Shown in pieces: positions 43,101-49,100 of a stretch of DNA of 64,000 nt (positions within the stretch are counted from its first letter, which is position 1; every line of letters starts with the position of its first letter). Position numbers and translations under genes: made by a program. The stretch spans positions 1,778,001 through 1,842,000 of the forward strand of contig NC_088710.1 in assembly GCF_963576615.1 (NCBI RefSeq), in the 5' to 3' direction. Source of the stretch: Watersipora subatra (lineage: Eukaryota; Bryozoa; Gymnolaemata; Cheilostomatida; Watersiporidae). A model generated the notes under the pieces. The model was not told where the DNA came from, made no database searches, and saw nothing but the letters and a program-made list of their open reading frames with translations.

Positions 43101-46100
43101 ACTGACACCCTCTACTCTTCCATAACACTGTTGCTTCCACTCCAGCTGGAGTGGCACCCTCAACCCTGACTTGATTATAAATAATTGCATGATCTGGTGT
43201 TTAATGCTGTGGTAACTCGCTACTCTGGTTAGGCATGTATATCTTGTAGGGCTTCCCTAAAAGTCATGTTATTTGAGCATTGGCTTCTCTTTGTACAGTT
43301 TGTGGTGCTTATTTTAGAATTAGGTTGTTCAAACCACTATCAAGTCATTTCTAAACCCAAATAGCAAAAAGCTATCGTCCATTAGAGTAAAACCATTCGA
43401 ATGATGAAAAATAGTCAAATGTTATTGTGAATGCGCGCATGTTGCACTTTTCATGGAATTTCAGGAAATCTCCCAAGTATTTAGCGCCTATGCACTGGCG
43501 GATCTTGTTTAGAGAATAACTCTTTGTATAGAAAACACGGGGAACCAAACGCCAAAACAGTAAACCCTGCATTGCAGAAGAAGCCGATTAAAGCATCAAT
43601 TCATTTTATAGGTCAGGAGCAGCTGAGAAGGATTCTACGTGAGGCTGATACTCTCTATTCCCAGAGTGAAGTCGACAAGCTGTATGATTTCCTGCGTACT
43701 TACGATGATGCGACAAGTGCTGAGATCGCCTGGAGACAAGCTAGGTCTCTTTAGATCATATTTAGCAATTTTAGATGAAGATAAATATTACCTTGACTGC
43801 TCACTGCGTAACAGTATGAGTACATGCTACTTACGAGTGACATTTCCTGCTTTTTGCTGTAGCCTTAATGTCGCTGTCGTGTTGAGGCGGACGAGAACCG
43901 AACTTATCTAGGTTTGGGTACTCATTTCTAGGGCAGCGTGTGATAAGGCTAAGCATTGCGAAGCCAAGTCAGAGGAGCGAAAGGTTCTCATGAAAGAAGG
44001 GCTAAAATATGCGGAGAAGAGTATGACCCTGGATGACAAATGTGGACCGTGCCATAGAGTAAGTGTAACACATCATTCAGTGTCAGCCAATCTTTGTCTG
44101 AAAGCTAATCTAACCAAAGGTTACCATCTGGTGGATATACGGATAGTTATTGCTCAGCTTCTCATTTTCGTATTTCCAAGCTTTCCTATTTATTATCTTA
44201 TTAATATGTCATCTCCAGGTTATGTGGCATTTATTATAATGTACAGATAATTACAGGATGATCAGTGTCTGTCTGTTATAACCCGGAAACGTTGGGGAAA
44301 TGTATGTTTAAAGGTTGACTTGCAACAAAATTCACATTAGTTATTTGATATCAAAAGATTCACCATGTCTTACTCTGTTGGGTTATAGGTGGAAAATATG
44401 TAGAAATGTGATTACAAGCTCTTAAAAGCTAAAAAGCGAACAGCTAATCGCAGTCACACGAGACCGCCTTAGTTTGGATTCTCTTTCCAAAACGACTCAA
44501 ATGTGCTGTAGTTGTGGTAGATGGTTTCTGTTTACACTTTCATGCAACCTTATTCGTCGAAATATTTTCACAAATATACTTCACGCATTCAATAAAACCA
44601 TGTTTATTGTTCTTACGCGTCTGTTCTATCGTCATTGTAATGCTGTCACTTTTAGCAGTGATATCTTATAACTTACCGTAAAAATTCATTTAATTTTTTA
44701 ACCTTACCTCGAAGGAGCACATATCATTGTCTGATAATCATGACCAGCCTGTTGGTCACCTGTGATAATCGATAAGTGCTGCAGAAATTATTTGCGCAGT
44801 ATTGGGTCACATGATCAGATTACGACTTGCTGATTAGACCAAGCCAAAACAAAACTGTAAAGTAGCGAGCATCTATATTTGATACGGGGTCTTCAACAAA
44901 CTCCGAAGTGTTTGTCATAAACTAGTGCTACGATAAGTTTTATATTGAGATTTTTATTGGCCTTTCAGTTCACGTGAGACTGTCATGTGACAAGACAATA
45001 ACCAACCTGTAATGACAAAGTCAGAGAAATAAACAGATTCCAATCTACGGCGGCTTTTCGTTTTTGAGCTTTTAAGAGCTTGTAATCACACTTCCACATA
45101 TTTGGCACCTACAACACTACAGATTAAGACATGGTGAATCTTTTGATACCAAATAACTGTAATGTGAAATTTGTTGCAAGTCAACCTTTAAACAGATCGT
45201 TTTTTGTCTGCTTGTTGAAGGATTCTGCAGCATGAAATATCTTTAGCTGACATGTTATAATAATTCTAGTAGAGGAGCTGAAACTGCATTGTAGAGGTCA
45301 TGTTAGCGATAATGTCAATGGAAAGAGACAAGTTTGGAACACGCTGTGTCCATGCGTATAAATCAATATTGGACATTTCCTTTATTTTACAGATGCTAAT
45401 ACAGTTATTTATATCATACACTATGTTACAGTGATACGCTGTAATGTCATACACTATGTTACAGTGATACGCTGTTATCTCATACACTCTGTTACAGTGG
45501 TACGCTGTTATGTCATACACTCTGTTACAGTGGTATGCTGTTATGTCATACACTCTGTTACAGTGGTACGCTGTCATGTCATACACTCTGTTACAGTGGT
45601 GCGCTGTTATGTCATACACTCTGTTACAGTGGTATCCTGTTATGTGATACACTCTGTTACAGTGGTACGCTGTAATGTCATACACTATGTTACAGTGATA
45701 CGCTGTTATGTCATACACTCTGTTACAGTGGTACGCTGTAATGTCATACACTATGTTACAGTGATACGCTGTTATGTCATACATTCTGTTACAGTGGTAC
45801 GCTGTTATGTCATACACTCTTTTACAGTGGTACGCTGTTATGTCATACACTCTGTTACAGTGGTATCCTGTTATGTCATACACTCTGTTACAGTGGTACG
45901 CTGTAATGTCATACACTATGTTACAGTGATACGCTGTAATGTCATACACTATGTTACAGTGATACGCTGTTATCTCATACACTCTGTTACAGTGGTACGC
46001 TGTTATGTCATACACTCTGTTACAGTGGTACGCTGTTATGTCTTACACTCTTTTACAGTGGTACGCTTTTATGTCATACACTCTGTTACAGTGGTATGCT

Positions 46101-49100
46101 GTTATGTCATACACTCTGTTACAGTGGTACGCTGTCATGTCATACACTATGTTACAGTGATACGCTGTTATGTCATACACTCTGTTACAGTGGTACGCTG
46201 TAATGTCATACACTATGTTACAGTGATACGCTGTTATGTCATACACTCTATTACAGTGATACACTGTAATGTCATACACTATGTTACAGTGATTCGCTGT
46301 TATCTCATACACTCTGTTACAGTGGTACGCTGTTATCTCATACACTCTGTTACAGTGGTACGCTGTTATGTCATACACTCTGTTACAGTGGTACGCTGTC
46401 ATGTCATACACTCTGTTACAGTGGTATGCTGTAATGTTAAACTATGTTGGCGACTATGAAGGAAACAAAGAGAAAATAAAGTATTCCTATATAGTACAGC
46501 AACATTTCCAGGTGCTTATACCACTATGCTAAAGTTTATGCTTGTGCTAAGGTCACTCAATTTCAACATTTTCGAGACGTGAGTTTCACACTAATCAGAC
46601 TCTTGAGACACTAACTGACCTTGACCTATCTGTTTGCATTTACTTCGCCGATTCTCTGACATCTACTAGTGAATAGGAGAGCTTAGCTGGTATTCACTGT
46701 CATATCGGTTTATTTTGCAACTTTCTGCAGCGGTTTCGGTTTTTTAACATTTGCAATTTTCACAAAATATATTGTTAAACTTGGTACACAAATAACCACC
46801 GTGATGTAGCTGAATGAGTCAAACACAAAGTCTGCCAATGGAAAGTTTTCAACCATTTTTTTGGCAGTATGAAATGTGAAGTGTCACTTTACACGCTACT
46901 TTCCCTATGCTCTAAATATTTACTTTGTGTTGACAGCAAGCGATGGAGTTGGATCCTACTGATGCCACCTCTATGTACTGCCTTGGACAATGGTAATATA
47001 TACTCGTATGTCATTGCGTGTAGGTGACAAGTATTTCTCACTGATCAGAAAAGGAGTCTTTGATGGCTTCATTGATCAATCAATTTGATTATCTAAATTT
47101 AACAAGTTATTTTTGTTCATTAAAGCTCGGCTGGATACCCAACCCCTAGCTGACATCTGATGTAGTTAAGTTGGCTGAGATTGCTGTGGACGCTTTAACA
47201 TGTGATGAATACATGTAATGGTTGTTATAGTTTTTGTGCCGTCACCCCAACTTGCCATAAAACTGTTACAATGATATTCTACACTACTTTGCAATACTTT
47301 TTTGACTGCATAAAACATTACCTTTTAAATTAAGTAGATTTTCTATTAGGACACAAAACTGTTTATCTGTGGTTTGTCATTGCGTCGAAGATACTGGTCT
47401 TCAATAATAATAAATACATTTTCCAAGGTGAAATCTTGATTAATACAAATTGTACGCACGCTGTGAGGTACAATATGAGTTGTCCTAAATCCGTCTGCTG
47501 AACAAATGCAAAACAGCAATTAAAAACCACTAAGGGTAGGCTCTACATTGGCTCCTGCATTGTGCTTCTAGAACACCTAAAAACAAGGTCATGCACTGTG
47601 GGTGTCGCTATCTGTGGTGTAAGTCACCGTCATCACTACCTGTAGCATGCCTCCGATTCGTTAGTCACTGTGGTATGTGTCCAATTTTTTGCTCCCTGTG
47701 GCATGTGTCTGATTTGTTGCTACCTGTGGCATGTGTCTGATTTGTTACTACCTGTGGCATGTGTCCGATTTGTTACTACCTGCGGCATTTGTCTGATTCA
47801 TTACTACCTGTGGCGTGTCCGTTTCGTTACTACCTGTGGCATGTGTCTGATTCATTACTAATTGTGGTGTATCCGATTCATTAGTCCCTGTGGTATGTCT
47901 CCAATTTGTTACTACCTGTGGCATGTGTCTGATTCGTACTACCTGTGGCGTGTCTGATTCGTTACTACCTGTGGCGTGCCCGATTCGTTACTACCTGTGG
48001 CATGTGTCCGATTCGTTACTACCTGTGGCGTGTCCGATTCATTACTACCTGTGGCGTGTCCGATTCGTTACTACCTGTGGCGTGTGTCAGAAGATTCATT
48101 ATTACCTGTAAACTTCACTTCAGTTGTTATTATTCAAATGCTGTTACTTGTGGCATGTGCCATTAGACTGGCTCACACTGTATTATCGTATGTCGGGGTT
48201 GTCTTTTCGACATTCATCATCGAATATGCGCACCTGGGACCGATAGCATCGACCATGTGCACTGTAAAGTAATCACCTCGATGAAGCAACGTGGATACGT
48301 CGTAAAGTGTGCAGCTGTCAAGCTTTCCCAATAGTTCGCCCAGCATTGATGACAGCCTGTACATTGTGCACCATTTCAGCAATGGGGATTCGCTGTTTTC
48401 GTTTATGATAGTTGATGCTGGACTAGTATTTGATGTGAACACGCAGAAACAAAAATATTCCTACAAAAAAAGTGATAACACTGTGTCGCGGAAAGTTCGC
48501 TGATGCAAACGTGAAAAGGTTTTGTGATAGTGTAAGCATTGTTATCACCGAGGATTGTCAAACTATTGTGGCATCGATGCCGAGATACAGCGATATGGTG
48601 TGAACCAGTCTAGTTGTTTTTACCTGGGGAGTGTGTCAGTTGTTACTGGTTGTGACAATGTGTTCCTATTTGTGACAACATATAATAAATAACACAAGCG
48701 ATGCCTACCTATGCTGTATTAAAGGTGTTACTACTTTGCTGAGATGTCATGGTACACAAAGAAAATAGCTGGTCTGATATTTGGAACTCCTCCAACGTCT
48801 ACCTTTCAAGAGGCTCTAAAGTACTTCTCCCAGGCAGAGGAAAGTAGGTACTTCACAGCGACGTAGTTTTACGTTCTACCAGTGAACTCCCATTATATTC
48901 TTGATGCTTCTATTGAAGTTGTCAACATCAACTATATCTAATACCTTGATACATGAAAAATTTTAGATATAGGAAAAATCCATGCAAATTTTTGCCCTGA
49001 AATTCAGGACAGCTATGTTACATTACACAGCCACAAAAGTAGGGCATACGGCCGTTAGCCACCACTGTCTGTCTCAAAAGTAAGCACTCCATACAGTACT

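Follow-up and report, generated by a model that had tools for sequence, protein, structure and literature searches.

Which of 31 nearly identical splice acceptors is used when an intron ends in a tandem array of copies of its own exon border, and how could such an array have arisen? The question is raised by the gene RMDN1 of the bryozoan Watersipora subatra, located in a 64,000-nucleotide stretch of contig NC_088710.1 (positions 1,778,001 to 1,842,000, forward strand; hereafter the window, with coordinates counted from its first letter). Intron 4 of this gene runs into a 33-base minisatellite, each unit of which carries a splice acceptor followed by a version of the beginning of exon 5. The minisatellite probably grew from the exon border, and the prediction is that it leaves the transcript together with the intron, since splicing would mostly take the last, exon-adjacent acceptor. 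The array is of an already known kind, the "mirage" of amphioxus, represented here by a member in another phylum; its interest lies in the phylum and in the clean example provided by 31 acceptor modules. If the last acceptor is used, the locus constitutes a natural test of how the spliceosome chooses among 31 near-identical acceptors.

Tandem Repeats Finder reports the array at 45409-46437 with a period of 33, 31.2 copies, 91% matches, 0% indels, and a score of 1694. Decoys were defined by 33-base steps back from the acceptor at 46422, and the resulting table of units contains 30 decoys and the real border, i.e., 31 acceptors at a spacing of exactly 33 bases. Briefly, a unit comprises 18 intron-type bases ending in TTACAG and 15 exon-type bases, and the last unit is the real border. 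TTACAG is present in 31 of 31 units and is followed by TGG in 21 and by TGA in 10, all of the latter being decoys (10/30). The only AG dinucleotides between 45431 and 46421 are those of the 31 acceptors, always 33 apart. Chance cannot account for an array of such length and regularity. The unit table and Tandem Repeats Finder confirm the repeated splice acceptor and exon start that the sequence-only reading had noticed upstream of RMDN1 exon 5, although two details of that reading require adjustment: its figure of about 31 decoys is correct for the acceptors in all, the decoys numbering 30, and its statement that the unit is exactly the exon border is correct for TTACAG and the exon-start versions found in every unit, but not for the 33-mer of the real border (TATGC...TAATG), which is unique to the exon edge and occurs in 0 of 30 decoys. 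Each variant base of the real unit does occur in some decoy. Among the 31 units, 17 are distinct and 12 of the 33 columns vary, and long blocks are common to distant decoys (a 122-base block recurs 15 units apart, a 109-base block 14 units apart). Furthermore, CTATG replaces CTCTG in nine of the 10 TGA decoys and in no TGG unit; the tract of this form has 10 or 11 pyrimidines versus mostly 11 or 12, approximately one fewer.

The joined exons of the gene match the Pfam family RMD1-3 (E 7.5e-28), the match extending through exon 8, and the PDB entry 7cc7, regulator of microtubule dynamics protein 3 (E 2.4e-28). An NCBI protein, P0001 ("regulator of microtubule dynamics protein 1-like isoform X2 [Watersipora subatra]"), is identical to the joined exons at 154 of 158 residues, with the mismatches at the C-terminal end of the match, and reads CGPCHR followed directly by WYAVMLNYVGD, so that exon 4 (end 44058) is joined straight to 46422 without insertion. 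After exon 7, P0001 leaves the homologous reading as if a second donor were present 4 bases downstream (48844-48847); such a donor would lead to a shifted frame in exon 8.

The beginning of exon 5 appears to be old. In the seven proteins aligned, which are the 7 best of 14 matches listed and include W. subatra, two molluscs (Solemya and Lottia), an oomycete, a slime mould, and two further proteins, the tryptophan that opens the exon is invariant (7/7) and an insertion is present at that point in none, and the WYAV of the exon start also occurs in the RMDN3 structure 7cc7. Because the exon start is conserved in such distant homologues, the array was likely copied from exon 5, as the sequence-only reading had proposed; the conserved tryptophan and the P0001 junction at 46422 support that derivation, and at the level of protein neither of the two outcomes named as refuting it occurred, since the exon start matches in homologues and P0001 is joined at 46422. 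One tandem duplication across the border of intron 4 and exon 5 would have started the array, later exchange or slippage of multi-unit blocks would have enlarged it, and selection on the protein would hold the exon-edge copy. The unique exon-edge unit and the long blocks common to decoys fit growth by multi-unit exchange with the edge unit kept apart. Two candidate triggers of the initial duplication were rejected. Long flank homology is not seen at the junction, where approximately 1 base is shared. The word ACTATGTT is found both in the body of exon 5 (46441-46448) and in the left-edge, CTATG-type unit (45420-45427), and in the presumed ancestral border the two occurrences would be 31 bases apart; had they seeded the array, its expected period would be 31 and not the observed 33.

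Regarding the acceptor used, half of the decoys (15 of 30) have the same bases as the real acceptor over positions -18 to +5, and for decoy 25 the identity extends over -60 to +4; since the best decoys match the real site, local acceptor strength can hardly single out 46422. A method applied to human introns looks for the branch point within the AG-free zone that precedes the acceptor and approximately 15 bases beyond (PMC1431707). If of the ordinary kind, the branch point and pyrimidine tract of exon 5 would thus be expected in or just upstream of the AG-free stretch preceding 46422; as this zone is inside the array, all three acceptor elements (branch point, pyrimidine tract, and AG) would come from repeat units. 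The choice may instead be made from downstream, the donor of exon 5 (46512) acting through exon definition and the closeness of 46422 to the exon body adding to it. That body has purine-rich triplets, which are absent from the array: starts of GAA, GAG, AAG, AGA, or GGA number 11.1 per 100 bases in exon 5, 0.0 in the array, and 6.6 in the upstream intron. No unusual fold that might hide the decoys was found in the part folded (46257-46511; z 0.06).

Several observations weigh against passive removal of the array by way of 46422. The purine density of exon 5 does not stand out in the set of six RMDN1 exons measured, which span 8.9 to 20.3, and hence the enhancer argument is a contrast with the array only. 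Most of the 15 matching decoys diverge from the real site farther upstream, only decoy 25 still matching from -23 on, so that differences there could contribute to the choice. The acceptor-like site at 45392, just before the array, has 13 pyrimidines in 17 positions versus 11 in 17 at the real acceptor; it is in the same reading frame, and a transcript spliced there would gain 13 codons before the TGA of decoy 30 closed the frame. The use of 46422 is read from one database protein, and "isoform X" in its name marks a computed model. P0001 represents two sequences clustered at 90% identity, and a form with 11 more residues could lie hidden in that cluster. A purely passive array is challenged above all by the intact TTACAG of 30 of 30 decoys, though marginally: in a column test its invariance has P ~0.05, a weak hint that decoys might be kept functional, and the longest invariant run in the array columns has P 0.23. 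Selection that keeps decoy acceptors was considered on these two values and found unconvincing.

The consequences of decoy use follow from the reading frame. Because the intron is in phase 0 and the unit is divisible by 3, decoys 1-3 stay in frame, and each unit would add the block WYAVMSYTLLQ (with WYAVI in decoy 3), whereas a frame entered at any of decoys 4-30 (27/30) is closed by a stop no later than copies 4-6. The expectation that TGG copies would add 11 codons in frame consequently applies to decoys 1-3 (11, 22, and 33 codons) and fails for all other TGG copies, which meet a stop; the companion claim, that TGA copies bring a stop if used, holds for the 10 TGA decoys, among them all of decoys 4-6. 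Leakage to decoys 1-3 would yield slightly longer proteins, and leakage to decoys farther up would yield a stop and probably mRNA decay. In the exon-type parts of the decoys, 7 of 10 distinct changes alter or stop a codon, as would 38 of the 45 possible changes; by this share of codon-changing differences, there is no sign of coding constraint in the decoys.

These data bear on three other explanations. The decoys might be a working splicing device in which decoys 1-3 add one to three blocks, the stop-closed decoys lower RMDN1 output by way of decay, and array length tunes the gene. The 31 intact acceptors, the phase-0 intron with a unit divisible by 3 that leaves decoys 1-3 in frame, the identity of 15 of 30 decoys with the real acceptor from -18 to +5, and the slightly less pyrimidine-rich CTATG tract of nine of the 10 TGA decoys are all in keeping with such a device. 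However, the intact TTACAG is only marginally unlikely (P ~0.05, with P 0.23 for the longest run), the link between TGA and CTATG is equally explained by common descent of one sub-family, P0001 and the 6 other aligned homologues lack an insertion, and the decoys lack coding constraint; we consider a device of this type improbable. A fuller version, a length-adjustable splice switch in which the number of modules would differ between or within colonies and would set the form and dose of RMDN1 via in-frame blocks and decay, is speculative and rather improbable as well.

Splicing might also proceed mainly via the site upstream of the array or via several decoys of an otherwise genuine mirage, the 46422 junction being a modelling choice. 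The pyrimidine-rich site at 45392 and the computed origin of P0001, indicated by its "isoform X" name, are compatible with this, but 45392 or decoys 4-30 would put a stop in a conserved gene, and the homologues are without any insertion there, which renders this explanation very unlikely. Finally, an ordinary intronic minisatellite could have come first and later have overwritten or extended the exon start. The window is indeed rich in minisatellites, approximately 17% of it falling within the 15 arrays examined, 14 of which overlap no exon of two gene models (RMDN1 and a WDR38-like gene). Nevertheless, the residues at the start of the exon are old, and no gap appears there when the protein is aligned with its homologues, implying that the exon is not derived from the array, and this order of events is accordingly hardly credible. 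Growth from the exon border, with splicing mostly at 46422, is the likely reading.

Minisatellites at splice borders have been described in amphioxus under the name of mirages (PMC3087553; PMC3902484), and the globin authors suggest from RT-PCR of globin genes and from Adh3 data that splicing is undisturbed; length instability and cluster edges that escape homogenisation are also described there (PMC3087553). In the BflGb6 mirage of amphioxus, the cluster edges escape homogenisation (PMC3087553), as the real-border 33-mer of RMDN1, present once in 31 units of 17 types, appears to do. By contrast, the BflGb6 units are 150-160 bases long and number 6 and 3 in two haplotypes, versus 31 units of 33 bases in RMDN1, and the animal is a cephalochordate, not a bryozoan. 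The amphioxus Adh3 mirages (Canestro et al. 2002, via PMC3087553) are repeats across exon-intron borders with units of 10-72 bases, a range that includes 33, and length and somatic instability are reported for them according to the citing papers. In lancelet PGBD5, tandem repeats overlap splice sites as in RMDN1, although they are imperfect and far fewer in copies (2 x 60 and 3 x 108 bases; PMC3902484). Paralogs in human segmental duplications contain variable internal tandem repeats, minisatellites with a mean unit of 30 bases through which gene structure is altered (PMC2812944). Some of them sit at exon-intron boundaries, where novel introns may result, and approximately half fall within coding sequence; in RMDN1, by contrast, no new intron is evident. 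Tandem duplication likewise multiplies splice motifs in the proto-splice-site model of intron gain, which was rejected for this array as it needs AG/GY to serve as acceptor and donor, and the acceptor AG of RMDN1 is followed by TGG or TGA; the best donor in the array agrees with CAGGTAAGT at 5 of 9 positions. Tandem acceptors of the NAGNAG type, which need AGs three bases apart, were rejected on the AG spacing of 33 throughout.

With the mirages, the RMDN1 array shares a unit that spans the intron-exon boundary of a real gene, a copied splice signal, and an unhomogenised edge unit; the amphioxus mirages resemble it in structure and edge-unit behaviour, and the apparently regular splicing of their genes is, by analogy, in keeping with use of 46422. 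In the literature searched (most subscription papers lying outside it), the accessible texts that name such minisatellites are the amphioxus papers only. Searches of the bryozoan literature turned up no paper on such arrays, and in the accessible part of the Watersipora genome note one mention of "repeat" was found, concerning centromeres. With the present array, splice-border minisatellites would extend beyond cephalochordates, the group of the published descriptions consulted; it is suggested that any genome sufficiently rich in minisatellites gives rise to them, and a survey of whole bryozoan genomes could begin from this array.

Table 1. Features of RMDN1 and of its splice-border array, in window coordinates.
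Feature	Position	Strand	Basis
RMDN1 exon 4, ends CGPCHR	43932..44058	+	
RMDN1 intron 4, donor AGA/GTAAGT, array at its 3' end	44059..46421	+	
Pyrimidine-rich acceptor-like site TTTCCTTTATTTTACAG, just upstream of array	45371..45392	+	
Splice-border minisatellite, 31 units x 33 bases	45414..46436	+	Tandem Repeats Finder and unit table
Left-edge unit (decoy 30), CTATG/TGA type, adjoins single-copy intron	45414..45446	+	unit table
Exon-type parts of decoys 4-6, all TGA; close frame for any decoy farther upstream	46224..46322	+	
Decoy-3 acceptor to exon; decoys 1-3, sole ones keeping frame open (+11, +22, +33 codons)	46323..46421	+	
AG-free stretch (31 bases) before real acceptor	46389..46419	+	AG positions
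RMDN1 exon 5, 90 bases, phase 0; first 15 bases within last repeat unit	46422..46511	+	junction matches P0001
RMDN1 exon 6	46937..46992	+	
RMDN1 exon 7	48725..48843	+	
RMDN1 exon 8, last coding exon in reading used, including stop codon	51771..51946	+	

The 15 minisatellite arrays were picked from 60 overlapping Tandem Repeats Finder rows, leaving out the polyubiquitin-like array, dinucleotide runs, and most short arrays. No other mirage was found in the window, as 14 of the 15 overlap no RMDN1 or WDR38-like exon, although genes may have been missed; the longest word common to these 14 arrays and the exons of the two gene models is 12 bases. For a chance estimate, 7 arrays were assigned to the two gene models with their 24 borders, the exon limits of the WDR38-like gene being approximate and one of the 7 (20000-20305) sitting just before the first WDR38-like exon located. 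Approximately 0.22 arrays, a rough figure, are expected to cross a border by chance, and thus one border-crossing array is no great surprise in a minisatellite-rich window.

Other features of the window were recorded in passing. A 47-base minisatellite of approximately 50 copies (49369-51703) takes up the greater part of RMDN1 intron 7, leaving 68 bases between its end and exon 8, and a 24-base minisatellite of approximately 139 copies is located at 58642-61960. The exons of a WD40-repeat gene are distributed over 20560-33660, with two large minisatellites between two of the exons located; its closest named relatives are mollusc proteins annotated as WD repeat-containing protein 38-like (among the best 120 of 3055 matches). 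An open frame at 4147-5907 extends over approximately 7.5 tandem units of 228 bases and presumably encodes polyubiquitin. A Pfam scan (E up to 0.01) covered 74 + 36 open frames of at least 60 amino acids, i.e., 110 of the 160 listed, the frames outside it being those of the polyubiquitin-like array, the majority of those in the 36-52 kb region, and a handful of others; among the families examined (25 of the 26 in one set), it returned WD40-type families, two isolated weak matches to other families, and one match to the HMG-box. The palindrome CAACTCGAGTTG is repeated several times at 40460-41284 in RMDN1 intron 1, and its copies are possibly parts of a mobile element.
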